Shown here: piece after piece, positions 1 through 57,048 of the stretch
How positions within the stretch are numbered: the stretch's first letter is position 1
Layout: each line of letters opens with the position of its first letter
NCBI GenBank assembly: GCA_000827205.1
Contig: KN832555.1
Span: forward strand, 446,845-510,844
DNA from: Plicaturopsis crispa FD-325 SS-3
Taxonomy: Eukaryota > Basidiomycota > Agaricomycetes > Amylocorticiales > Amylocorticiaceae
Reading direction: 5' to 3'
DNA: 64,000 nucleotides
The notes under the pieces: model-generated
The model's input: only the letters and a program-made list of their open reading frames with translations
What the model was told of the DNA's origin: nothing
Databases searched by the model: none
Position numbers and translations under genes: made by a program

Positions 1-394
<394 letters not shown>

Positions 395-666: not shown

Positions 667-674
667 CGCACTTA
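667..674. repeat. target-site duplication, left copy (8 bp) of the KDZ element
   Basis: CGCACTTA directly precedes the first base of the left terminal inverted repeat and is repeated exactly at 11256..11263, just outside the right repeat. An 8-bp duplication fits what is known for Zisupton-type elements. Confidence 0.92.
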
Positions 675-1001
675 CACCTGTGACTCCCATATGATGGGTG
701 TTGTTAGACCTGTTATCGTGGGGGTCTCGCACGGCTAAGTCGGCTCAAATTTGCTGATCTACCGCCTCCTTCAATAAATGCTCGTTATCGATCACCTGGC
801 ACTTGTTAGATTCCCATGAAGTACCACTGTTAGATAGTCTTAGAGCACGTAGCATTCACGCGCCGATCGACAAGGCGCCTAGAGTGTGCGCCGTGGCGTC
901 GCCGTCGCCAAACACGCGAGCTCGCTGTTCCCCACGACGAGCACGCGTTTTTGCTCAGTTTTTCGATTCCCGCCGCCGTACTTATGTGGTTGGAGCTCAA
1001 T
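675..1001 (+). repeat. left terminal inverted repeat of the KDZ element
   Basis: About 325 bp match the reverse complement of about 10936..11255. Over the outermost ~104 bases only three mismatches are seen. Divergence rises further in, with conserved islands such as GAGCTCGCTGTT and CACGACGAGCACGCG near the inner end. The outer block is probably the transposase recognition region. The inner boundary is approximate. Confidence 0.9.
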
Positions 1002-1064
1002 TACTCCGGGGGCTGTTCTTAGAGATAATATACTTTGTTATTAAGTAGAACAATACACAGTGTG

Positions 1065-3048
1065 CTAATGAGGTCCCGACGATTCGTCGCTAGACGAGTC
1101 TGAGTCCACGATAGCTGCGCTTTTGGGAGCCTTCTGCACCCTTCCCTTGCCCTTAGACGCCCTCGCCGTGCCTCCATTGGTCTTTCTCGCCCTCTTCGCC
1201 GATCCCTGAGGCTCAGCTTCAGTGTCTTCAGGACCGAGCGCTGACGCCGACGTGCTCTTCCTCTTGGTACCCTTGTCCGATCGTTGCTTCCGTGGCGGCT
1301 TCTCGATGGTCTCGCCCCGGTCACGGCGTTCCTCCAGGTCGGCGAGATGCGAGGCAAGCTGACCCTTCGTCATCTTCTCCCAACGGCAGGCGCCAGATTT
1401 CCAGGCATCTCGTAGTTTCCGGATGTCACCAACGGCGCCGATGGTAGAAGGGCTGGCGAATTTGACGTCCTTTGGCCATCCTATGATCCGAACGCTGAAT
1501 TTTTCGACGATGTCCTTTTCGTAGTTGCGGTAGCACATAAGTATAGTTCGGATGTGCGTAGTAGACTCTGCACACGACTAGGATTAAGTAATGCATGTCC
1601 GTAGAAAACATAAGGAATAACTCACTGAGTGCTGTCAGGATCATGCGCGTACATTGCCTGCGCACGTTTGCTAGGTTGTCGCGCTCGACAATATCTATTG
1701 CACCGTTACCGCGATTAGAGACAGGGCAGTGAACGAGGCTTGACGGACTCACTCTGGTTAAGGGCACATGCCCACTGCTCGTACTGCCGAACGATCGTGT
1801 CGGGGTCCATCTTCAAAACATCCTCCCAGAAATCCATTGAGTTGTGCGTGCCATAGTACGTTGCCTGGGCAGTGTCGTTGACGTGGCCTCTGGTCAAGAA
1901 GAAGCAAGCATATGCCCCTGTACGACTTGCCAGATTGTCGAGCTACATTGTGTCGAATGCGTACACATCAGCATTTGTATAAGTGATATACCTATGCCAA
2001 AGGATGCTCACCAGCTTGATTATCGCTTCGACGGTGGCCAGTACATCGCGAGCTGCAGCGGCGTTGTTAGCGCGTAATCCGGTGAACTTCGTCTCGCGAT
2101 GCTCTTGAAGCTTCTCAAGATAATGCTGTTTCTCCGCCTTAGTCAGGTTTTTCATGTCGGGATCGTTGGCGACAAGGTCTGTTAGCTCGGCGAGGCTACG
2201 GCGACTGCCCATGGGTAGATCTAATGATAGTCAATGGCCTGTGATAGAAGATAGAATGACCTCGTACCCGCATTCACTTCTTCGGCCTTGGCGTGGATGA
2301 GCGCGTTTTTCAATGTCACTTTGCGAGTGCTCTTCGTGCGCGTATGAATCCCGATGAGTTCCTCCACCTCCTTGGGACGCATGTCAAACCTCGTCGCAAT
2401 CTCCTCGACCCTGGCCTCCATATCCTTGACAACTTCGCGGACCGCATCGTTCAGTCCTTGCGTCCTCGCCGCACGTTGCTCGCGCGCGATGTCCTGCGAG
2501 GCTTTCTGTGCGTCTGTAGGACGTCCGCGTCCAGGCCGAATAGCGAGGATAGGTCGGCCGGGGTTGCGATCCTTCCAAGATGATTCATTGGCCATGTCGT
2601 CAGCTGGAGCCTTGCGCGATGAGCCCACGACTTGCGATTGCACATCGATTAGCTGTGAGTCTGAGATTGCTGATGGTACGTGGATATCGGGGGTGTGCAC
2701 CGGTGGCGATGGTTCAGAATTGTAATGCAGGTTTACATCGCCAACTGAAGCAGTCGGAATGGATGTGAGACCGTCAAAGAGGACAGGGTTGGTGTGGGTA
2801 GACTGCGCTCTGGGGTCCGTCTGGTCATCGTATAGATTATCGAGGTCTAGTGGATCAGCAGGATGGAGAAGCTGGTATAGCGGATCTGGGTGGTAGAGCG
2901 GAGCATTGAGATCAACTGCGCTGGGTATGTTGAATGAAAAACTGTCATATTCCAGTCCGCCGTGAGGATCACTAGAGCCTGGTGGGAGGGGTGGTAAAAA
3001 GTTGAGGCTGTCCAGGAAGCTCCCCGTAAAATTTGGTTGATCGTCCAT
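1065..3048 (-). CDS. KDZ-element passenger protein of unknown function (583 aa)
   Basis: Model: complement of join(1065..1567, 1626..1694, 1753..1942, 2012..2220, 2268..3048), with four introns of 47-69 nt and all phases consistent. A longer in-frame ORF begins upstream at 3117. Three parts can be seen. Residues 1-150 are acidic and Pro/Asp-rich (begins MDDQPNFTGSFLDSLNFLPP), possibly an activation or interaction region. The middle is charged and helical (DMEARVEEIATRFDMRPKEV and following). The C-terminal part contains IIGWPKDVKFASPSTIGAV and ends in a Lys/Ser-rich tail that looks nuclear (KGTKRKSTS, GSAKRARK). The GWP...PSTIG module resembles hypothetical proteins common in mushroom genomes; no function is known to me. 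It is transcribed divergently from the TET/JBP gene with about 0.9 kb between. A DNA- or chromatin-binding role is only an inference. Confidence 0.8.
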
Positions 3049-3958
3049 GCGCGAAGAGTGGGGGTGGAAGGGTGGTGTGCTTTGCGGGCAGGAAAAAGCT
3101 GCAGTGGTGCGCCACATTGACCGTCGACATCACGTGCGATTTGTCGCGTTGAACTTGGGCGGTAACTTTCAGTAAATTGACGCTGGCATATGCACCGTAT
3201 CAGACTCACCTCACACATAGCACAGGTAGATGGGTGGTGCGTAACAGTGCCACGTACTTGCAGATAAATCGCCAAGCGTCAAACCTGCAATAATGAGTTT
3301 ATATTGTCAGTGTGGTGTTGCAGAGCTAGATAGCCGGCGACGCACCTTCATATCTCGAATTATAATAGTCGTTTGAGCGTATGAATGCCTGCATTCGAAG
3401 CCCTGCCATGAGTACGGTCAAAGAGCGCTGTGCTCTGCAAGGCAACGTTGCGAGACCTACCGAGCCAGGCTGTCACTGCTGCAGATGGCGGGTGACTCGG
3501 ACATAGATTCTGTACAGATGATGAGTATTTGAATTGCGCCTACCACGGCTGAGATATGCTAGTAGTTACCCACAAAATTTGCAGCGACTCGCCGTGAGCC
3601 TGAGATTCCGTGTGGGCATGTTTTGTTGTGGAGAAATACCTGCCACTGTCCAGTGGCGCAACTTGTCGTCTGTCGCGGGTGGTAGAGAATCTCGGGTAGA
3701 GTACTGCAAGGGTTTAGAATCACACAGCTGAGAATTCGAGAGCCTCGAGGCATCAGCATGGGCGATCCCTCGCAAGCATTTGTGGATCCTAATCATAACA
3801 CTTTCCTAGTTTGGACGTTGATTTGTTTCCGCGTCGGAGTTGGAAAGTTCAGCTCAGCAGACGGAACCTTCTCCTCAGTGAACACTCGAAGTCATCTCCT
3901 CCCTCTCTTTTCCTTCTCCACATACTACCCCACGCTGGTTCGCACCGTGCTGCTCAAC
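3049..3958. promoter_or_regulatory. divergent intergenic region inside the KDZ element
   Basis: About 0.9 kb separates the start of the minus-strand unknown gene from the inferred first exon of the TET/JBP gene. No convincing ORF is seen here. By position it must hold the promoters of both divergent genes. I could not identify a confident TATA box. Confidence 0.45.
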
Positions 3959-5968
3959 ATGCGCATTGTCCCGAAAGTAGTGAAAGGTCAGCAATATTTT
4001 TTATTGAACTCTCGAGAGAAGCTGTAGGCTGCCTGGACAATATTTCGCTGCTTCATTCCTGGACCTGCGGGTGGACTCCAGCGCTGACTCCAGCTTCTCT
4101 CTCTCTCCGTTCTTGTCCACGGAATTGCTGCTGACCGAATCTCTGTATTTTTGGGTTTTAGAAGTTGTATGCGACGTTCTCGGTAAGCTTCAACATCTGT
4201 ACGCAGGATGCAGGCGCTGACGCGTTTTTCCTCACAGTGTACGCGACAGAACCGTCGTTCAGGCGTGTAAGTTACTCTCCATGTTTGGGAAACACATATA
4301 CTGACGATTTCTTCACGTAGACGCGCACGGGAAAGAAGTTCTCGCCGTGGGCCACGCCGGTCACTGCAGCCAGCGGCGCGAACTTTGACTTCGACCGCCT
4401 ACTTTACGACGCCGTCCAAGCAGAGCGCAGTCTCAAGGATGACGAATGCGAGGGCCAAGAACTTGACTATGCAATTGATTGCAACTCGCCCGCGCCCGCG
4501 CTGCCTGTCAAGTACTTGCACACCCACACGCCGTCCCCATCATCACTGGACCTAGATACACCGGCTCCATGCCAGCAAGCATCAACCAGCAAAGATGCAC
4601 CACAAAATTCGCTCCAATTTGCCACGCAAGTCTTCCATCCACGAAACCGAGAATACCCCGATGGCGAGTTCGAAAAGGCCCATCGCAAGGATGCGCACAA
4701 CAGGCGTCGCGCTGAACGACGTCAACGCCAGCGCGAGAGCGCGCCATACGGCGAGTACAATTTGCGCCCGTCAGTCATCAACAAATATGTCCGGCCGGCT
4801 GTCGCGCTCAAAACTACACTCGACACCCCGAATCTTCCCCATACGATCAACGCGTACACCGGTGGCAGGGACACGGGCGCTCCGCGTAAGGTTTACACCC
4901 TTGAGGAGCTTTTGAAGCTGGGGTTCAAGTACGAGTCTTGGAGTGGCAAGTAGGTCTACAGTTATGTGTACTTCGCGATTCTAACTGACATCCTTCTAGC
5001 GACTCTAGGCCAATTACTGATGATCGTGGTAAGGTCATCGGTGCTCTTTGCTGCCAACCAGAGGATGCGGACTGGCACGAAGGCGCCGCTGATGCAATTG
5101 ACAACGCGCGCTCAAGGATGCGATTCCCGAAAAAGGATTCGAATCACCGTCGCGGGGCCTTCTGCGCACAGGCGGTGGGATCGTCTTTTGGCGGTGGACA
5201 GAAGGTTTGTTTATGCCGTACCGTGTCTTCAGTCAACGCCTCACTCCCTCCTCAGATGCCTGGGAATCTTGTCAACACCGCCGTCAATGCTGCCGTCCTT
5301 GCCAGTCTACTAAGCAATGTTTATATCATCCGCATAGCCGGCTTTGCATCTGGTAGGTCTTCGACATGTTACGCTTTGTTACCGTGGCCCCTGACACCTC
5401 AGTTCTAGCTGCGTTCGCAACCTGGGCCCCGAACCTATATGCCTACTACGTTGATCACCTCAGGCCCCTCCACACTACGTATCCGCGCCTTAAGCGCAAC
5501 TTCGCCAACAGTGTCTTCGCTGCAGCCACCTTCAACTTTGGTCCAGTCACCTGCACCTACCCGCACCGCGACCCAGGAAACCTTCCGTTCGGGTGGTGCG
5601 CAATTACAGCCTTAGGCAAGTTTGATCCGACGCGCGGGGGCCATCTTGTACTCTGGGACATGCGCCTTATCATCGAGTTCCCGCCCGGTGCTACCATCCT
5701 GATCCCTTCCGCAACCATACGACACTCCAATGTGGCAATACAGAAGGGCGAGACTCGCTTCTCGTTTACGCAGTATACAGCTGGCGGCCTCTTTCGCTGG
5801 GTGGATCAGGGATTTCAACCGAGCTCCTCATTTATGGCAGGGCTTTCGAGTCATGAGGTCAAGGAGGAGAAGGATCGCGCAAAGATCCAGGAGCGGTGGC
5901 ACATGGGAGTAAACCTTTTTTCTAACCTCGCCTCTCTGCAGCAGCCTCCTAACTTTGACGCAGTTTAG
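3959..5968 (+). CDS. TET/JBP-family 2-oxoglutarate/Fe(II) dioxygenase (putative 5-methylcytosine oxidase), 522 aa
   Basis: Model: join(3959..3986, 4162..4182, 4238..4266, 4321..4949, 5000..5204, 5256..5352, 5409..5968). The small first three exons are the least certain. TET/JBP enzymes oxidise the methyl group of 5-methylpyrimidines in DNA using Fe(II), O2 and 2-oxoglutarate. The catalytic domain occupies about residues 270-490. It has the glycine-rich AVGSSFGGGQ stretch, the iron ligands H389 and D391 in TYPHRDPGN, GWCAITALGKFDPTRGGHL, the distal ligand H442 in TIRHSN, and R453 in GETRFSFTQY for 2-oxoglutarate. All expected ligands are present, so activity is plausible. The N-terminal 270 residues are charged, with an Arg-rich segment (AHNRRRAERRQRQRE). 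It lies in the same orientation as the KDZ transposase. The TET/JBP-KDZ linkage is established in basidiomycetes; the substrate here is inferred. Confidence 0.9.
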
Positions 5969-6052
5969 CTATCTTGCCTATGTTATACACTTACAGAGTC
6001 AATGACCGTTAGTTTCTTGGCACTCTCAGTCTATTTTCTATGCTCACCGTGT

Positions 6053-6184
6053 GTTCACCATACGTTCGCCAAATGTTCACTATGAATTCGCCATACGTTC
6101 GCTATGCGTTCGCCATATGTTCGCTATGAGTTCGCTATGTGTTCACCATGAGTTCGCCATACGTTCGCTATGTGTTCACTAGGT
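6053..6184. repeat. 11-bp tandem repeat (about 12 copies)
   Basis: Twelve head-to-tail units of consensus GTTCGCYATRN, with variants such as GTTCACCATAC, GTTCGCTATGC and GTTCGCCATAT. The array sits just downstream of the TET/JBP stop codon and upstream of the next gene, inside the KDZ element. It could act in 3'-end formation or protein binding, but only the repetition itself is seen. Confidence 0.9.
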
Positions 6185-6264
6185 TTTTTGACGGTGCACT
6201 GAACTCATTTCTGCCTTGCGCTGTCTAGTATCATTGCGACCACTGGCAGCACCACAAAACTTAG

Positions 6265-7166
6265 ATGGGGAAAGGACAAGGGCACAAACGGACGTCCGAA
6301 AGTGCGAGATTGGCAACCAACCGCTGGATGAATAAAGCTGGGTAATATGTCGATTCCATTCACTGTTCTGTAGCATCTTTACTCATCCAGTTCTGTAACT
6401 TCTAGGGTCCGCGAAAAGCAAAATGAGAAAGCCCGTTTACGCGTAGCGAAAAATCGTGCACGGTAAGTCCTGAATCACATATAGAATACACAATGTGCTG
6501 ATAGATAACATGTATAATAGGAACAAAGCTGCGGCGTCAGTGGGCATGTCTGACCTGCAGTCCGCCGGTACTTCAAAAAGCACCAGTGGACGGGTTGCAT
6601 CGTCATCTGCCATTATCCCACCCGTTTCTCTACGCCAGTACCGACGTTCCGCCAGTCTTGATGATATCAATGGCAGTCAATCCTCGGACGGTCAGTCGGA
6701 CGAAGGCCGCAACCCTTTCGACGAGGGCTCGGACGGTCTTGTTACACTCGAAGAGCCGGATGATATCGCGCACAACCTACGACGCTGCCGCCTTGAGATG
6801 ATGAATTGGCAGTGTAATTGGGGGAGTGATGTCACCTACTGGGAGAAGCATTTCTCGGAGCTACTTGAGGAGGCACGCCAGCTCGGGGACTCGGAGATCA
6901 GTGATGGTGTGGTCAATTTCTTCCAGGAGTTCGAAGCTCACGTTCAGGAGGGAAAGGACATTCTGGAGGACTTGAAGCATGTCGCTGTGTGTACGTGCGA
7001 TTCCACGCCTGATGAGATCCGTGACCTTTTTTTCCAAGGCTTCGAGATGGTCATGGCGGTGTGCTCAGAAGTGAAGTTTTTCGAGACGAAGCTTTCTCAA
7101 TACGCGCCCGCTATACCGTTGTCAAAGGTCACTGATTATAGATCGTACGGGAACTCTAGCACGTAG
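6265..7166 (+). CDS. KDZ-element small protein with basic N-terminal region (259 aa), function unknown
   Basis: Model: join(6265..6341, 6406..6462, 6521..7166), with introns of 64 and 58 nt and consistent phases. Residues 1-55 are strongly basic (MGKGQGHKRTSESARLATNR, then REKQNEKARLRVAKNRARNK) and look like a DNA-binding basic region, although no leucine zipper follows. A Ser-rich linker (residues 60-110) leads to an acidic helical C-terminus with EEPDDIAHNLRRCRLEMMNW and TYWEKHFSELLEEARQLGD. I do not recognise a named family. It lies between the TET/JBP and transposase genes on the same strand, so it may assist transposition or bind element DNA; that is inference. Confidence 0.72.
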
Positions 7167-7315
7167 TTGTACCAAGGCTGATTACCAGTATATACAAGTA
7201 CTTAAAACAGGACAGGCCAAAATATTGACATAGCTCTGCTGAACTTGTCGCCGCCACACGATAACATCAATAACCAGTGTCCCTTGGTCGTCGTGTCTTC
7301 CTCTTGCCTTCAGCT

Positions 7316-10300
7316 ATGGCCAAGGGTCACGGTCGTGTCAGAAACCGTACCAATCTTTCAACTAGAAAGGTCCGGCATCCAGGGCCATCTCGCGATGCAT
7401 CAGGCTGTAGTATACCTCTCACGCACGAGGTCTTGGGACCCACAGCGCTTGCGAAACGGGCAAAGGACATGCACGAAAAACGGAAGATAAGATTACAGGG
7501 TGAGTATTTCAATGCTGCTTGGTACATGTAGACCATCCTTACAGTATATTCATCTGTAGAGATGACTGTCGACGAACGGCGTGCACTCGAGGCACTCCGA
7601 GAGCTTCCCATCGCAAACGACGACAATCGTGATCACACTTTCGAGGACGTCAACATCGAAGATATACTTGATGGCTCCGAACCGTTGAATATCAGCCATG
7701 CTGGCGGGGAGTTCATAGCCCTTACCGAAGAACTCAACAGTGAATTATGGAAAAAGTAAGCCCGAGCCCCAAGTCGACTTGACTGACTGTAACTAACTAT
7801 GTGAAAGTCAGTACCGTCGGATACCTAGGCAAATTGACTACCGGACGCGGCGAGATCGACAAGAGCGCCGGGATCGTGCATTCAACAGGCAGATGGATGC
7901 TCTCGTAGACGCCTATCTGGTCTGGAGCTTAGACCGAGCTGAAAATCACGACGCGGGATTTTTCACGAGGTTAGCTGATTGGACTCGTGATGCCAGTGCA
8001 GATTCAGGATGCACTGAGGTCACAGTTGTTGACATATTCAGTGCATATGTTTTTTTCCTCTATATTGAGCAGCGTACTGAATGCCAGCGTTTGTTTGTAG
8101 CTGTCAAAAAAATATCTCTCCCCATCCTCCCCACTGATCGATACGTCGCATCAGCATTCGTGAGGCAAGGTGTCATGCCTTGCTCTCCTATCGCTCCTAC
8201 TGTGGGGATCACAACAGATGCTCTCGAGCTCTATCGTGTAGCCCATCTGCGTAATCCTCACTTTTCTATCCAGGCCTTTGTGAAGACTCTCTGTGACCTC
8301 CATACCGTACGAGGATCTTCTGTTACTTGCCGAACACTGTGTCCTAATGTATTCTGCAGGTTCCATTCCGCCGACATCTATCTCGGCAGTTTTCGATCGC
8401 CTTCGACCTCTACCTTGCCATCCGAGCGGATGTTGACAAAGCCGTGCATGCCGCATTACATCGCAGTTCACCCGATTGGCGTCTAAAGCATGCCTGTCCT
8501 GCGTGCATGTACAAGCTCAAGGACGAGGACCCGCTGCTTTTCAGTATGCTATACACGCAGGACGGCAACGACTCTTTGCGGCGCGTAGTCAAACGCTCAC
8601 CATCGGACGAGGATGGAAAGCTTGGTCCATCATCCGAGCTCCCGACCGCGCGGCAAGTGAAAGGTGATCGCTATCTTTCACGCGAATACGTCAACAAGTG
8701 GGCCAATAGAGAGCTACAAAATGCTACGGCTGTGGCAGATGATTTGGACAAAGTAAGTGGCAGCTGCATCAAGTATTTACTATGCCCAGTCGCTCATTGA
8801 CTTACCATGGCAGGACCCCGACTCCGATACCCCATGCGGAGGTCGCTGGAAGAATATGAACCAGGCCATTCTCGATAGAATGTGGGGTGTTTTTGATGAA
8901 ACCGGCATATTTTTGGCGCTCTGCCGGCACGGCTTTTCCCTGCTTATTGCAGACATGGTGCGGAGCGGAGAACTGTAAGCTTTCCACACAATATCCAATG
9001 CTCGATGTTGACCAGTTTAACAAGTGCGAAATACCCTCTCGCTATCACCGAAAAACTCCTCGATGCATTCGGTGACAGGCTTGGAGGTGGCTACGACATC
9101 GGTTGCAAATTTAAGACCACGCTCAACAACAGCTCCCTTGGGGCTCGTGCCCGCTTACTTCATCACACGAGTCTGGTGGGTGCGTTCCATGGGCACGCTC
9201 ACCAGCGGTTGTGCCAGCTCTCGCACCTTGCTACATATGTCAAGGGATTGGGCCTCGAAGACCTCGAAGGATGTGAACGGGCCTTCTCCCAGTCAAATGC
9301 TCTTGCCCCCGCTATCCGATACGCCAGTGTCTTCCATCGGCAGCAGGCCATTGCAACGTATTTCGAGCACCATGACAATTTCGAAATCTACGCAAATCTC
9401 AGTGAGCGCAACCCTATAGCGTCTATCCGGCATGATATCTAACTGTATTTGTTCGTGATTACCACAGCTACGTTTCTGTTCAATAACTACAAGCAAGCTC
9501 TCGACATCCTATCTGATGGTGAAGTCGCCCTCCCCCTTGCTATGGCGAACCTGAATATAACCGACCGTCAAGTTTTCGAGCTCTGGCTAGCCGAAGAGAA
9601 AGAATATCTGGTTGGCCTGCAAAAGGAACCAGAGGAGGAGACACTACAGATGGAGTATTGGCAAAAACTTGTCAATCTGCGCGGGAGCGAGTGAGTTCGA
9701 CTTATGCTTTCCGAGTGAACTTGCCCATGGATACTCACATCTATGTCTCTGGTAGGAAGGACCTAGCAAGTGCAACGCCTGCTGTCTGGGATATAACAAC
9801 ACCCGGGACCCATGCACAGGACCACAGGGATACCACTCGTGCTACCGAGACAACACGCCGCCATGCTGTTGAAAACTACGAGAAGGACTTAAAGGCGGTG
9901 CAGGTCCTCGAACTGAGGCTCGATATCCAAGCACGCTGGATGCCAACAGATCTCGAGTGGCAGAATGCAGGCCGGCTCGTGGCGATGCGCAAATATCAGC
10001 GCGCGCTGGACACGCTCGAGGGCCTGATCGTCGCGCGGATGTTTGAGCTGACAAAAATGAACAGATCACAAACTGGTGAGTGGCGCAAGATCACGAACCA
10101 CAGACACTCACCACTCCATCCTTCTAGGCTACGCGCTGCGGAAGCACATTGGTAAGGCACTCCAAGCACGGTCCTCGGCCATCCGCACTGCACTAGAGAA
10201 GTACAATGCATCCGCCGCATCCCTCTCTCCACCTCGTCGTACGCTTGAGTGGAAGGAGGTAGTCGAGTACGCCTTCCTAGCGGACTTTGACCTCCTTCGC

Positions 10301-10903
10301 GACACTCGCCAGGACATCTCGCAACGGCCGTGGGCAACACCAGCTGGACGATTGGCCATGGACATGCACTTCAAGATGCACCGTGCCGAAGAAGAAATTC
10401 AGCGCCTTAACATCGAGATCCGCCGGGTTGCCACATACCTTCGTGACGAGACCAGTTATCTTCATGCATGCGAGGAGCAGGTGCGCCCTTCGAATGCGGC
10501 CCTCGCTTACCAGATATCCGTGCATCGTCTACAACGCGGCCGCTTCAACTCCCAGCATGTCCGACGACTCCAGGATATTGCCAAGCTACGTGGGTTCAAT
10601 GGCACCATCTCCCCTGGCCACAGCGATGCTACAGGTCTCGGCGAAAGTGCGAGCCGACCACTGTCAGTACCCACACCGATGCCCGCGTCCCCGATGACTC
10701 TTGACCCTCCGGAGGACATTGCAGGCGCCTCACGCCCTGGGAACAGTACTGGAGCTTTCACGACCGACGATGCTTCCCCAGACGAGGAGCAGTATGTAAC
10801 AGACACTCTGGAGGAATTGGAGAGGGACGAAGACGAGGATTCATCAGTCGAAGAGGTATCTCAAGCGCTGTACACCATCTTACATGTATCGGGTGACGAG
10901 TAG
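7316..10903 (+). CDS. KDZ transposase with CxC1-type cysteine module (1042 aa)
   Basis: Model of nine exons: 7316..7499, 7560..7755, 7808..8306, 8360..8752, 8814..8974, 9025..9401, 9468..9690, 9756..10075, 10128..10903. KDZ transposases cut and paste DNA through an RNase H-like fold. Recognisable blocks are GVMPCSPIAPTVGIT with RVAHLRNPHFSIQAFVKTLC, a cysteine pair in WRLKHACPACMYKL (C339, C342), YTQDGNDSLRR (D361), the CRHG block FLALCRHGFSLLIADMV, GGGYDIGCKF (D502), GAFHGHAHQRLCQL, and LEGCERAFSQSN (E562). D361, D502 and E562 are my candidates for the catalytic acids; this assignment is inference. The C-terminus (residues 600-1042) is coiled-coil-like, then Ser/Asp/Glu-rich. Introns ending in AAG precede 7808 and 9025. 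The reading frame is intact throughout, so the element may be autonomous. Confidence 0.93.
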
Positions 10904-10935
10904 CTGTATGCACGCTACTAGTATAGCATTAGCTT

Positions 10936-11255
10936 CAAAATCGAACTCAACAATGTAAATACGGCGGTGTTAATCGCAAAACTGAGCAAAAACGCGTGCT
11001 CGTCGTGGCAAACAGCGAGCTCGCATGTTTGGCAACGGCGACGGCATGCGCCACGTGGATTTTGCAGCGCTTACACGTCATGCACTCTAAAGCTATCTAA
11101 CAGTGCGATTTCACGGAAAATTCACGAGTGCCAGGCCAGCGATAATGGGCATTTAATGAAGGAGGCGGTAGATCAGCAAATCTGAGCCGACTTAGCCGTG
11201 CGAGACCCACACGATAACAGGTCTAACAACACCCATCATATGGGAGTCACAGGTG
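10936..11255 (-). repeat. right terminal inverted repeat of the KDZ element
   Basis: Reverse complement of the left repeat at 675..1001. It ends ...GGGAGTCACAGGTG at 11255 and starts about 30 bp after the transposase stop codon. The outer ~104 bases match the left end except at three positions. Confidence 0.9.
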
Positions 11256-11263
11256 CGCACTTA
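11256..11263. repeat. target-site duplication, right copy (8 bp) of the KDZ element
   Basis: CGCACTTA, identical to 667..674, immediately outside the right terminal repeat. Confidence 0.92.
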
Positions 11264-20039: not shown

Positions 20040-23000
20040 CTATATGTGGAGCTTAGCCAAAAGATGCACAGGATACATGAATATTTGATGGTCTTCTCCA
20101 CCGACTTCAATGGGTCCATCGGCTTTAGGGTCCCCATAGACGGTGACTTTCTCGCCCCTCCTTTCGCCGTAGATGACGAGACATCTATCCTTCGTCCTGT
20201 CGGGCGGTACTGGCACCAAGTACTTGATTTGGACGGTCGTTGGGCCTTTGGCTTCCAGTGCGGGTGATAGGAACTTGATCGTAGCAGTACTCTGGTCTTG
20301 TTTACCACTATCGAGGACGGAGTCGACGGAACCCTCTTCATTCTCAAGGTCGCCGTCGTACCACCGTGTGACATTCGTCCCTTGAATTTTGACGACCACG
20401 CCTTCGTAGTTGGGCAGGTCAAGGAGCCACCGGGTCGGCAATTCTAACAGCAAGTTAGTTTCGACGGTAGCGGGAATAGCGATGATTCTCACCAAATGCA
20501 TCCTCGTCACGAGTCGCTCCTGGTGTTGGCGCACTGCTATACATTCCAGCTCCGGGAGTAGGAGCTTGCATGACGCGAGCCGGTTGCCTGCTAGAAGCAG
20601 CCGGAGTGTAGCCAGCAGACGGGTTATTGAACCCACCATAAGCTGGCGTCGGGGCCCCACGAAGCCCTGGCGTCTCCGCGGTGGCGGCAGGAGTAGGTGC
20701 TGAATTCTAATGACCAGCTTCAGTCAATAAACTGTGCATCACATGCCAAGGACAACATACCCCCCACGAGTCTGAGGCACCCCAGGAATTGTCGCCGCTA
20801 CCCCATGCATTATCACCACCGCCACCCCAATCATTATTAGAGCTAGCAGGTTTGGGCGTCGCACCCCCGAACGAATCGTGCCTTGGCGTAGCACCGCCAA
20901 AGTTACCTGCGCCGCCGCCGCTACTGTACGGATTGGGTGTTCGAGCAGCGGCATTCCAGGCGGGCGTCCGTCCCCCGTCGGCGTAAGGATTGGGCGTCCG
21001 CGAAGAGGCATTCCATGCCGGCGTTTTGCCGCTGTCATACGGATTCGGCGTGCGAGACGACACGTTCCATGCTGGTGTTTTGCCACCGTCGGCGGCATAG
21101 GGGTTGGGTGTTCGGCCAGTAGCTCCCCATCCAGGAGTACGATTGCCAGGCTGCGCGTAGGGGTTTGGCGTACGAGAGGCGCCGAAGGAGCGAGGGGGAC
21201 CCATTGAACTGTTGCCAAAACCACCACCAAAACCGCCGCCCTCGAGGGGTTCAGTACTGCCGTTTGGACTGTGGAAGAGAACAGTTAAGATACCAGAATC
21301 TCGAAAGAGTAGAGAAAATAAAATGCGTACTTTCTCCGCTTGAGCTTGTCCTTTTCTATCGATATCACCTTGTTGCCTGTGTGCAGCTCGACACGGGCCA
21401 GGGGACCATTCGTATCCTTGATGATACCAACGTAGCCCTTATGCGGGCCTTTCACCACGACGACGGTTACGCCGATTAGACGATCGCGTGGTCCGCGTCC
21501 CATCTTGCCGGAACCAACCATACCTCCCGCAGACGCACCACCGACTGCCGCAGGATTCATTTTTGATAAGTCGGACGCTGCAGGTCTTGCAAGGTTCCCT
21601 TTTGGCGCAAGGGAGGCTAAAGATCGTGCCCGCGTGACGAAGATACCGCCATTCTCAACGATGTCCCGATTGTGCAGGAAGGCAAAGAAGGACTGGTGTA
21701 TGTGAACGACTCGTCCTTTGCGGCCCTGGGTGAAGTTGGTCAGTGGGTGACAGCTCGGGCAAGTGAGAGATGGTTACCTCGCCGTCGATTTCTTTAACGT
21801 TGTCGTCTGGCCTTAGCTCATGCCCTTCTGAGTCCGTCGCGATGGCCCTATCCGAATCCCTGCGCATGGAGATTTGGTGTGGTTGGACAAGGCGAACTTG
21901 ACCGTTCTGGTCAAGCACACGGAACGAATCTCGCTCGGTTTTGAAAATGACACCGACAGTCTGGAGGCTACGGAGAAGTCAGCGAAATTATCGCGGGCAC
22001 TACTAAGCACAAATACTGACTCTAATTGCACAAGGTCGTGTAGCTCATAATTTCCAACGATATTGGTACCCGACCCAACCTCGGCTGCCTCACGAAGGTC
22101 TTTAGAGAACACAGACACCTGGAACAATAATGATTAGCCTCATCAATCACGGGCAAGGTAATGAAAACGCACCTCTTGCATCGACATGTCTGATAAGAAA
22201 GTCACGACGTTGTCGGTCACTGCCACCACGAGACCCGTTTCGTCCGCGTTCTGCCCGGCCATGACTTTGACATGGTCTCCAGGCTTGAATCGCTTGCGCA
22301 CACTGCGGGCGGGAACATCGACTCTCTGTCCGTCAATGTCAACGCCCACAGCACTGAGAGTAACGATATCCTGGTTGATGGTCTGCACAACACCGTGTAC
22401 GCCTGACTGTTCGCCCTCGAAAACCTCGACGTGGTCACCGGGCTGAAGCACGGAGATGGCGGCTTTGCGAGACGCTTCGGCGATTACAGACAGGTCAACG
22501 TTGTTCTCGTTTTCGGCGCCATCCATCCCGCGTGCAAACCGTGTGATCTCGTCCAGAGTAGGGTTGACGTTGTCCAGGATGAGGGAAGTAAGCTTGGCAT
22601 CCTTTTCTATGAAGCCATCCTTGTAGGTGTCCGTTTGGAATACGTAGACCTGATTCCGCTTGGAGACTTGTTTCCGTCCGTAGACTTTGATGACTTCCTC
22701 GTAGTTGAAGAATCGTTGCGGAGGTCGCATAGTTGCAGAACTGCCGGCGCCAGCTTTTTTTCGTTTTCCGTTGACGGTTAACGCGCCTGCGTCATCATTG
22801 GGGTTGAGATCAATGCGTGGAATGAATTTGAGGCCGACGTCTTCGCCATTCTCCGTGATGTCCATGACTTTGGCTAGATCACCCGCATACTTGCCTCGCC
22901 TCATGCGGACCCAGCTGCCTGGCGTCACTGTCAAGTCTTGCTTCTTTATTTGCAGCAGGCTAGCCATTTCGTCGATAGGCACTAGCGCAATGCCACGGCT

Positions 23001-23903
23001 AGGATAGACGCCGACTAGGCCTTGTAGTGCCTGGCTGACTTGTTGGGAACTCCGCGCCTCGACGTAGATCATGCCCTGTAGAGAGTCACGTTGGAATGCT
23101 GACAAGATGGAGAGCGGGCGAGCGGTGTATTCGAGATCGATAGCTTTTCGCATGAGACTGAAGACGATGTCACGTTCTCTGCCGGTCTGAGATTCGCGGT
23201 CAGAAGTCAATACTTCGTTGGGGGTTCTAATTCATGACGCACCTTGACTCTGACTTGCCACAAGTTGGCGTCGTGGACGGAAGGCATCAGCAATCTCTGC
23301 GGAACTTCATTCATGTCTCCGGTGTAGCGGACAGCCGTCCGTCCATGGCGTTTCTTGAGGTCCTGGGCAATCTGCGCGAGGTCCTGCTCGTCCAGCTCTC
23401 GGTCCCGCCTGTCCAGCCGTGCGTGGTTTGCAGCTCTTCGGTTGATATCTTCGTCCTCGCCTTCATGGCCCTCGGCGATGAATTCGTCTAAAGGATAATA
23501 TGTTCAATATAGCGTTTCGAGCCCAAGTTGAAATCTCTACTTGTTTCGTAATCCTCCTCCTCTTCATCTAGGTCTTCGTCGTCGTCTACCTCAGCCTCAA
23601 TATCTAGGAAGCGGTTGGCGTTATGACGCCGCTGCAACAGAGTTCATACATACAATAACAATATAATCACAATTTGGAACTCACCCGTTTGTGCCCTCGA
23701 GCTACACCCGGGTCTTCATCCTCATCTTCGTCCTCTTCATCTTCGTCCATGGCCGCAGCATTGCCCTCTTCCTCTTCCTCTTCTTCCTCCTCCTCGTCCT
23801 CCAAACGACCGCGGCGGACTTCTGTTGACCCCGCAGCCTCGTCAAAAGGGTCCGAGTCCGCGGTGTTTTGTGCGCCGTACTCCATATCGTCTACGTCGGA
23901 CAT
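20040..23903 (-). CDS. SPT5: transcription elongation factor Spt5 (1125 aa)
   Basis: Ten exons: complement of 20040..20443, 20493..20706, 20761..21268, 21331..21725, 21778..21967, 22021..22118, 22173..23186, 23243..23487, 23541..23631 and 23685..23903. Spt5 (with Spt4, DSIF) rides on RNA polymerase II and supports elongation and capping. The N-terminal 100 residues are very acidic (runs of Glu and Asp). The NGN domain follows (NLWQVRVKTGRERDIVFSLM; MIYVEARSSQQVSQALQGLV), then several KOW motifs (VTPGSWVRMRRGKYAGDLAK, LQPGDHVEVFEGEQSG, RFKPGDHVKVMAGQNADETG, VVVKGPHKGYVGIIKDT). The C-terminal repeat region has about five units of the type SRTPNPYADGGKTPAWN, the target of P-TEFb/Cdk9-type kinases. 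A final KOW-like domain ends the protein. Length is normal. Confidence 0.95.
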
Positions 23904-55323: not shown

Positions 55324-57048
55324 TCAAATGTCCTGGTACGGCGGCAGATCCTCGCCATCCGGGCCTCTCCGCTCGTCTCCCTGCCCCTGGTTCGCGTGAG
55401 GAGCAGCGCCCGCAGCCAACACGCGCTCGCGCTCCTCCCTCTCCAACCTCTTCTTCTCATCCTCCGCACTCTCATGCTGCGGCGGCTGCCCCCCACCCGT
55501 GCTCAGCACACGCTCCCTATCCTCCCGCTGCAGCCTCTTCTTCTCGTCCTCCGCGCTCTCAAACCTCGCGCCCGACTGTCCGAAGCCCGCATCCTGCGAC
55601 TCGTTCCCAGCGAGCCCGCCGCTACGCGGGCCCGCGGACGGCGCCGCGCCCTTGATGTCGCGCAGCGAGCCGCTCGCGGGTCCGGGGCCACCCGCGCCGG
55701 CGGACACGGGCACACCGGTCTCCGCGACGGTGGGCGTGATGGCGGGTACCTGCGTGGGGTTGATGGGGTCCGGCGCAGCAACGGGTGCCGCGGCTGGTCG
55801 CGTGGCCGGGGAGGTGGACGGCGGCGGGAGGGTCGTGGGCGTGTTGTTGAGGTTCTGCGTGTTGATGGGCGGGGAGCCGCTCGAGGTGCGGCTGTGCGCC
55901 GCGTCCGGCTTGTAGGACGTCGGAGGGTGCTCCGCGCTCGTCTTTGGAGGGGGCGTGACGGGGAGGCCGGGGTGTGCGCTTCCCGTCCCGACGTCCGTGG
56001 AGATCGTGGAGAGCTCGCTCGCGTGCGTCTCGCCGAAGCTGCGCGTGTCCGAGCGGCTCAGATCAGAGGCACCTGTCTGCGACGGGAGGTTAATGTGCCC
56101 GGTCTTGTAGTTGTCCAGTGCGCGCTGAAGGGACGCGCGTGCGGCCGCAGTGGCGGGTGCGCCGGCATACGGCTCCTTGGCGGATGGAGGCACGCTGGGG
56201 AGGGCGGCGATGATCGGCTCGGACGCGTGTGAGAGCAACACCAGCTTCTCGCCGTACTCGCGCAGCGCTTCCCACTTAAGCCGCTCGCTCTCCTTCACGC
56301 CCTTGCGCTTGAGCAACTCGACCTCCTTCTCGGCGTCAACGTCGTCGCTTTCGGCCTTGGCGAGCTGCTCCTTGAGGTCTGCAAGCTTCTTCTCGTTGCC
56401 GCGCGCCCCGTCGTGCTCGGTGCGCGCGATCTGCGTCTGCAGGTTCGCGCGTGCGGTGCGGCGGGGGGCGAGTGCGGTCTCAGCATCGCGCAGCGCTTTC
56501 AGGGGTGTGCGTGCGGCGTCAAGCTTGACCGCGAGAGAGGAAGCGAGCGATCCCTGCACAAAATTGAGGTACGCTAGGCGATCCGTCACTGGTTAGTGGA
56601 ATATGTGTTAGCTTATGTCCAGATTTCATGAAGATCTAGCGCACCATCTTTGAGATCTGCGTTCTCGTTCTGGCCCCAGGTGTATAGCTCCTTGCTCTGC
56701 GATTTCGCGTCGCGGGACACGCTATCGAAGTCAATCGCGACACCTTTCTCGTTTGTGATCAGTTTCTGCACCGGTGTTGTGGAGCTACGGACAATGAGGA
56801 CTGCGATCGTAGCGTTGCAGATATATATGGACTCACGAATATTGCTGGCCAAACGCTCTCAGCTGGTACTGGAGATTCTCCAAGGTATGGTTCTTGGGAC
56901 CAGTTGCCGCCGCCTGGTTGGCAGATGGCTGAGCTGCACTACCTGGCGAGGTTGGACGAGCCCCGGGGATGTGCGATGCGATGGGCGACGAATTTATCGC
57001 ATTCTGCGCCTTGTCCGCGAACGATGACAGAAAACCTGGGACGGGCAT
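55324..57048 (-). CDS. eisosome component Pil1/Lsp1-type BAR protein (538 aa)
   Basis: Model: complement of join(55324..56588, 56645..56784, 56837..57048). Pil1 forms the scaffold of eisosomes, furrow-like plasma-membrane domains. The N-terminus MPVPGFLSSFADKAQNAINS and GPKNHTLENLQYQLRAFGQQ lead into the BAR core (KLITNEKGVAIDFDSVSRDA; LYTWGQNENADLKDVTDRLA; SLASSLAVKLDAARTPLKAL), with GEKLVLLSHASEPIIAALPS near its end. The C-terminal 250 residues are Pro/Ser/Thr/Gly-rich, longer than yeast Pil1, and contain a near-duplicated unit ESAEDEKKRLQREDRERVL / ESAEDEKKRLEREERERVL. Identification by N-terminal conservation is firm; the tail looks lineage-specific. Confidence 0.9.

Follow-up and report, generated by a model that had tools for sequence, protein, structure and literature searches.

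A stretch of 64,000 nucleotides (the window) from contig KN832555.1 of Plicaturopsis crispa FD-325 SS-3, order Amylocorticiales, contains a real, intact-looking, low-copy KDZ transposon, called element A here. It is assigned to the KDZ transposons because of its long inverted ends, the 8-bp duplications, an open KDZ transposase gene (gene 4) and a diverged second copy elsewhere in the genome. Judged by its sequence, another of the four genes (gene 2) encodes a divergent 2-oxoglutarate- and Fe(II)-dependent (2OG-Fe(II)) dioxygenase of KDZ transposons that is probably TET/JBP-like. The explanation favoured here, with moderate confidence, is that A is an autonomous cut-and-paste transposon in which gene 1 (g1) and gene 3 (the small protein) would supply accessory functions and the dioxygenase, as cargo, would weaken silencing by the host by oxidising a methylated base on the DNA of the element itself. 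Transposon-borne DNA-oxidation enzymes are of interest as a possible eukaryotic counter-defence against silencing by methylation.

Structure of element A

An earlier note on this DNA, made from the letters alone, had described a complete KDZ transposon with boundaries resolved to the base and four open, consistently spliced genes, and all of this was borne out (Table 1). Both ends carry the tip CACCTGTGACTCCC and are flanked by identical copies of a perfect 8-bp duplication, CGCACTTA. The inverted ends align over 310 columns, with about 81% identity between left and right, and a repeat search gave two pairs of arms, 675-845/11085-11255 (171 nt, 89%) and 894-992/10948-11046 (99 nt, 87%). All four genes are open, with 21 GT-AG introns in total; 17 of these were checked directly and four, those of g1, were set by the gene model. 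The spliced model of gene 3 is identical to the public P. crispa FD-325 SS-3 protein P0121.

The gene 4 protein matched the KDZ profile PF18758 at 246.7 bits (cut-off 26.6) over residues 334-575. It contains the motifs DGNDS, YDIGC and EGCER, the acidic residues of which may be the catalytic residues of the transposase core. Among 120 listed of 531 homologues, many of them fragments, YDxGC was found in 86 and ExxERx[FYW]S in 93. A search of IMG/VR with a piece of the transposase gave no relatives. The transposase would bind the CACCTGTG tips, excise the element and insert it with an 8-bp stagger.

By eye, the C-terminus of g1 and the N-terminus of the small protein are basic; domain searches including Pfam gave no convincing family for the former and no known domain for the latter. 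At least 27 proteins among the best 7,999 candidates scored are homologues of g1, one of them being that of the second copy, element B. The named homologues come mostly from Suillus and other Boletales, with one from Favolaschia. A search of 5.8 billion proteins with the small protein returned three matches, two of which were the P. crispa copies themselves.

Table 1 Features of element A (window coordinates) and of related loci elsewhere in the genome (contig coordinates)
Feature	Position	Strand	Details
Left target-site duplication	667..674	.	CGCACTTA; from sequence
Element A, KDZ transposon, whole	675..11255		10,581 bp; from ends, duplication, KDZ gene
Left terminal inverted repeat	675..984	+	about 310 bp, imperfect, tip CACCTGTGACTCCC; from end alignment and repeat search
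Gene 1 (g1)	1065..3048	-	583 aa; 5 exons: 3048-2268, 2220-2012, 1942-1753, 1694-1626, 1567-1065
Gene 2, 2OG-Fe(II)-dioxygenase-like (TET/JBP-like)	3959..5968	+	518 aa; 7 exons: 3959-3986, 4162-4182, 4250-4266, 4321-4949, 5000-5204, 5256-5352, 5409-5968
11-bp repeat array	6053..6181	+	about 11 units, GTTCGCCATAC-like; between genes 2 and 3
Gene 3 (small protein)	6265..7166	+	259 aa; 3 exons: 6265-6341, 6406-6462, 6521-7166
Gene 4, KDZ transposase	7316..10903	+	1022 aa; 10 exons; PF18758
Right terminal inverted repeat	10956..11255	-	from end alignment and repeat search
Right target-site duplication	11256..11263	.	CGCACTTA; from sequence
Element B, second full-length copy	C3:525678-538277		12,600 bp; duplication GGATTATG at either side
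Array of the same 11-bp repeat in B	L025 8062-8219
Element C3b, dioxygenase-less relative	C3:197770-209799		12,030 bp; paired ends, own 8-bp duplication
Five CACCTGTGATTCCC-tip elements	C1:3074982, C8:411429, C17:256845, C19:13566, C28:28399		paired ends with 8-bp duplications
Clear Tet_JBP loci	C1:3185061, C28:22529, C28:82369, C31:73867, C5:3040		over the Tet_JBP cut-off

Further copies and elements with similar tips

The genome (33.2 Mb, 49 contigs) was searched for further copies with the same termini, as the earlier note had proposed. The exact tip occurs seven times, against none for the reversed control, and four of these matches are the two ends of A and the two ends of B, a second full-length copy with its own 8-bp duplication. 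The remaining three are tips recorded singly on contigs C4, C14 and C15. With up to two mismatches the tip matched 201 times and the control 266 times, so that it is not enriched; since this looser pattern is no commoner than the control, paired ends alone were used to call elements.

B matches all four genes of A in conserved order, with 67-85% identity in BLAST blocks. Its transposase exon is interrupted by a 1,766-bp nested insert (L026, about 2350-4118). This insert has an AT duplication, and its tips, CATCA..TGATG, resemble those given for PlavakaB in PMC12730594. The third full-length element, C3b, has inverted ends that align over 131 columns with zero mismatches, and its transposase is 59% identical to that of A over 523 aa. 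A dioxygenase profile search of C3b gave nothing convincing (best 3.8 bits, E 0.81), and the best tblastn match (E 0.009, 24% over 94 aa), at 6646-6888 inside the transposase gene, was taken as chance.

The five elements with CACCTGTGATTCCC tips have inverted ends of about 330-342 bp that are 91-99.7% identical, and the one on C17 is 11.5 kb long. Among the matches listed, all eight elements with paired ends have a perfect 8-bp duplication, judged by eye for A, B and C3b and by script for the other five, and no ninth base matched. Within the parts read (the ends only for those on C1, C8 and C17, the middle of the C8 element being N), the five matched neither A nor C3b in DNA or protein, and none of the KDZ matches in the genome falls inside them. 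Three of them have 99.7% identical ends, which shows recent movement of elements with A-like tips.

It is extremely improbable that the region is a cluster of host genes or a duplicated segment instead of a transposon. The low copy number would suit such an origin, but the exact ends, the inverted repeats, the KDZ transposase and the 8-bp duplications, which differ between A and B, all speak for transposition. At the independent sites of A, B and C3b the paired ends are each flanked by a duplication particular to that site, which rules out a host gene cluster and also an assembly artefact, a doubt that the earlier note had itself raised.

Full g1 was found at at least three loci (A, B and C3b), with one weak partial match on C6, and the small protein likewise at three or more (the same elements), with a weak relative at C2:8112-8747. 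The latter stands near the start of contig C2 beside a dioxygenase relative (C2:5532, the two spanning C2:5532-8747), neither having a KDZ match closer than 10 kb. In A, B and C3b alike, g1 and the small protein accompany the transposase, and they look like core parts of the transposon; as both go with this transposase lineage, they may be accessory transposition proteins or regulatory proteins. The dioxygenase alone among the genes of A behaves as a variable passenger, which A and B have and C3b lacks. The earlier note had spoken of passenger genes, a term that suits the dioxygenase but not g1 or the small protein. Nor is the enzyme a simple follower of the transposase, because C3b has a related transposase and no convincing dioxygenase, whereas at C10:1245586 a dioxygenase 51% identical to that of A over 183 aa lies 2.4 kb from a KDZ piece, perhaps of the same element, with 27% identity to the A transposase over 82 aa.

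Selection and decay

Between A and B the ratio of non-synonymous to synonymous substitution rates (dN/dS, with 95% bootstrap interval) is 0.075 (0.056-0.093) for the KDZ transposase, 0.096 (0.069-0.132) for the dioxygenase, 0.22 (0.14-0.32) for the small protein and 0.25 (0.19-0.33) for g1, which shows purifying selection on all four genes. Genes 2-4 have dS values of 1.05-1.16, and g1 has 0.45. The comparison was mapped onto the codons of A, so that additional bases in B are passed over. Gaps and stops, among them the terminal stop codon, removed 1/519, 1/260, 3/1023 and 7/584 codons from genes 2, 3, 4 and g1, respectively. The left 1.5 kb of the element (window 675-2174) is 91-97% identical between A and B, compared with 40-88% elsewhere, and this may be a sign of gene conversion or recombination.

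The observed/expected ratio of CpG is 1.04 in A; the remainder of the window has 1.11 overall and 1.04-1.22 in ten parts of 5 kb. A is without marked CpG depletion. TpG and CpA are slightly raised, at 1.13 and 1.14 in A and 1.03 and 1.03 in the rest. With dN/dS at 0.07-0.25 and CpG at 1.04, the earlier note was right that the element shows no marked decay.

These results bear on the possibility that A is an inactive relic, once functional and now silenced or immobile, the genes of which are open by chance. In favour of this are the two copies found, 67-85% identical in BLAST blocks, and the transposase exon of B, split by the 1,766-bp nested element. The open genes and intact splice sites of A argue otherwise, however, as do the five CACCTGTGATTCCC-tip elements, three of them with the 99.7% identical ends of recent movement, whatever mobilised them, and a relic is considered most unlikely.

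The dioxygenase

The HxD...H...R layout that marks 2OG-Fe(II) dioxygenases is complete in the gene 2 protein of A. Its family occupies 15 loci in the genome (merged from 31 matches), 12 of which were read and ten aligned. HxD and the second His are present in all ten, and the following Arg in nine (Cys in C25). A tree of the last exon (12 rows, quick method) groups A and B with C25, C12, C10a and C19 (SH-aLRT 95). Ten of the 15 loci, A and B included, are no more than 10 kb from one of 31 KDZ loci (merged from 43 matches, one of them below the cut-off), compared with about 2% of the genome, independence being assumed; the enzyme family thus goes with KDZ transposons.

A weak match to the Tet_JBP profile (PF12851) was obtained for five of the ten members (best E 0.0014), and the three such matches shown begin two residues ahead of HxD. 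The gene that the earlier note had called TET/JBP is therefore better described as 2OG-Fe(II)-dioxygenase-like, its family being a loose relative of Tet_JBP; it is not a typical TET/JBP gene by any profile test. A second, typical TET set is present in the same genome: five other loci, neither A nor B among them, score over the Tet_JBP cut-off, and three of these have a KDZ locus no farther than 10 kb away, a sixth locus, below the cut-off, not being near one. One genome thus holds the backbone with the enzyme (A and B), the backbone without it (C3b) and a typical Tet_JBP set, which provides a natural comparison within one strain.

The family was also compared with the AG and PE types of TET. 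CcTet has Gly331 at H+5 and Asp337 at H+11, and TET2 has Asn in place of the CcTet Gly (PMC11040006). In ungapped numbering, and with the CcTet residues as described, the ten aligned members, plus B and C13 by eye, have Asn (H+5) and Cys (H+11) where the AG type has Gly/Ser and Asp, and all 12 loci read have HxD in place of the HxE of the PE type. By these residues the enzyme would belong to neither type.

The dioxygenase may oxidise a methylated base, most likely 5-methylcytosine (5mC), on the element's own DNA, and this would weaken silencing by the host. Such anti-silencing is plausible and is the leading interpretation. The earlier note had suggested that the element may demethylate or mark its own DNA. 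This is possible because the cytosine methyltransferase family PF00145 has matches in the host genome (four stretches at three places over the cut-off, some of which may be DNA enzymes).

Several observations weigh against this interpretation. The whole A enzyme matched no Pfam family, Tet_JBP included, up to E 10; when the last exon was searched by itself, 2OG-FeII_Oxy_3 matched at E 0.17. The three Tet_JBP matches shown are all below the cut-off (best 18.4 vs 34.9 bits). 2OG-FeII_Oxy_3 matches three of the ten members (best E 0.00064); in a score comparison of the two profiles, for which seven of the ten were rescanned, it outscored Tet_JBP in C19 and was the sole match in C9 and C24. No PDB chain matched the A enzyme in a sequence search, and two family profiles gave chance-like matches there (best E 0.02); CcTet was absent from all of these matches, with no positive control for CcTet in the PDB copy. 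C3b exists without the dioxygenase. The slightly lower CpG and slightly raised TpG and CpA of A leave room for mild past C-to-T loss. As to present activity, A and B are mutually old (dS about 1.1) and the ends of A are about 81% identical.

Some of these results favour an alternative in which the transposon is the same and the dioxygenase acts on N6-methyladenine (6mA), thymine, RNA or protein, the last in the manner of a prolyl hydroxylase, aiding transposition or expression other than by removal of 5mC. 2OG-FeII_Oxy_3 matches equal or beat Tet_JBP in three members, the five clear Tet_JBP loci form a separate set, and phrog_24024, a phage family with no stated function, matches all ten members (best E 2.9e-7; 0.00078 for A). 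A phage search with the last dioxygenase exon of A gave nothing at E 0.01, and a relative gave only E 8 or worse; IMG/VR held no relatives of the dioxygenase family. Against this alternative, the enzyme shows the same linkage with KDZ transposons that has been described for TET/JBP genes (PMC12730594), and the Asn at H+5 is, if the ungapped numbering is right, the TET2 residue that holds 5mC and hinders 6mA (PMC11040006). A substrate other than 5mC is possible but seems rather doubtful.

A hitchhiking dioxygenase, captured by chance and of no present use to the element, is unlikely. The variable gene content, with no convincing trace of the enzyme in C3b, would be consistent with this, but a dN/dS of 0.096 at a dS of about 1.2 indicates selection too strong for a useless passenger, and the family lies near KDZ at ten of its 15 loci.

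The 11-bp repeat array

Of the unexplained parts of A, the array that separates gene 2 from gene 3 is the most interesting. Its 11-bp pattern has 11 matches in the window, all of them at 6053-6181, compared with 0.5 expected in shuffles. A 20-base version of the repeat, with up to two mismatches, matched the genome 27 times (reversed control, three), and 21 of these matches are in the arrays of A and B. As an array the repeat is present in A and B only, Tandem Repeats Finder giving no such 11-bp array in C3b. Three clustered TTCGCYAT sites are found in C3b at its 5172-5212, in the opposite orientation and directly upstream of the small gene (background 1.4 per 10 kb). The array may be a binding site for a protein encoded by the element.

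A more elaborate proposal is that anti-silencing is guided: the small basic protein (or g1) would bind the phased array just upstream of the small gene and recruit the dioxygenase, which would be TET-like and represent a fourth transposon type not yet described, so that methylated bases would be oxidised on that element alone. A and B each have both the complete array and the enzyme, and C3b is without either. The proposal must be considered a long shot, the less probable because the TTCGCYAT sites of C3b link the motif more closely with the small gene than with the enzyme.

Comparison with known systems

The earlier note had presented full-length copies with defined ends as valuable, but KDZ transposons that carry TET genes and have defined ends have been in print since December 2025 (Kojima 2025, PMC12730594), so that completeness by itself is not new. 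That paper proposes escape from silencing for TET+ transposons and gives the function of transposon TET genes as without experimental validation, though the related CcTet has been assayed. Its main text mentions neither Plicaturopsis nor Amylocorticiales, and literature listings on P. crispa with transposon and on Plicaturopsis with methylation showed nothing on point. A was set against the Kyakuja, Zisupton and Dileera groups by their published descriptions.

Like A, the TET+ Kyakuja of Agaricomycetes have a KDZ transposase, a TET/JBP-like gene in a mushroom and CA..TG tips (PMC12730594). The two Laccaria families described have 7-bp duplications and no inverted repeats, whereas A has 8 bp and inverted repeats of about 310 bp; filing A as Kyakuja was ruled out by this difference in duplication length and ends. 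The Kyakuja TET is of the AG type and close to CcTet, whereas the A enzyme has no AG residue pair and no CcTet match was detected, and A carries two extra genes. TET+ Zisupton and Zisupton-1_PGr (a Dileera) resemble A in combining an 8-bp duplication with a TET/JBP gene; the hosts given are Auriculariales and Agaricales for Zisupton and rusts for Dileera, compared with Amylocorticiales for A (PMC12730594).

KDZ1-KDZ3 of Cryptococcus neoformans, which have been shown to move, are A-like in size (about 9-11 kb), in their inverted repeats (139-241 bp) and in their duplications of 8 bp (KDZ1) or 4-8 bp (PMC12810828). The passages of that paper mention no TET-like gene, whereas A has its dioxygenase, and they describe transposases with a CxC1 domain, which was not found in the full transposase of A. 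The 8-bp duplication and inverted ends stated for Zisupton and KDZ1 are both present in A. VANC of the Arabidopsis VANDAL transposons is a transposon-encoded anti-silencing protein, the targets of which are often tandem repeats (PMC5735166). The likeness is one of idea only, the transposon and proteins being different.

TET-carrying KDZ transposons are thus already known; the enzyme type and layout of A look unlike those of the described TET+ elements. The divergent enzyme raises the question of whether more than one kind of dioxygenase has been recruited by KDZ transposons.

Neighbouring genes

By eye, A lies about 300 bp upstream of the start of a putative mitochondrial aspartate aminotransferase gene (window 6-360, minus strand; L036 8902-9492), the short first piece of which gave no match in Pfam. 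Elsewhere in the window are ordinary host genes, for the SPT5 elongation factor (22146-23228, minus strand) and the eisosome protein Pil1 (55327-56589, minus strand).

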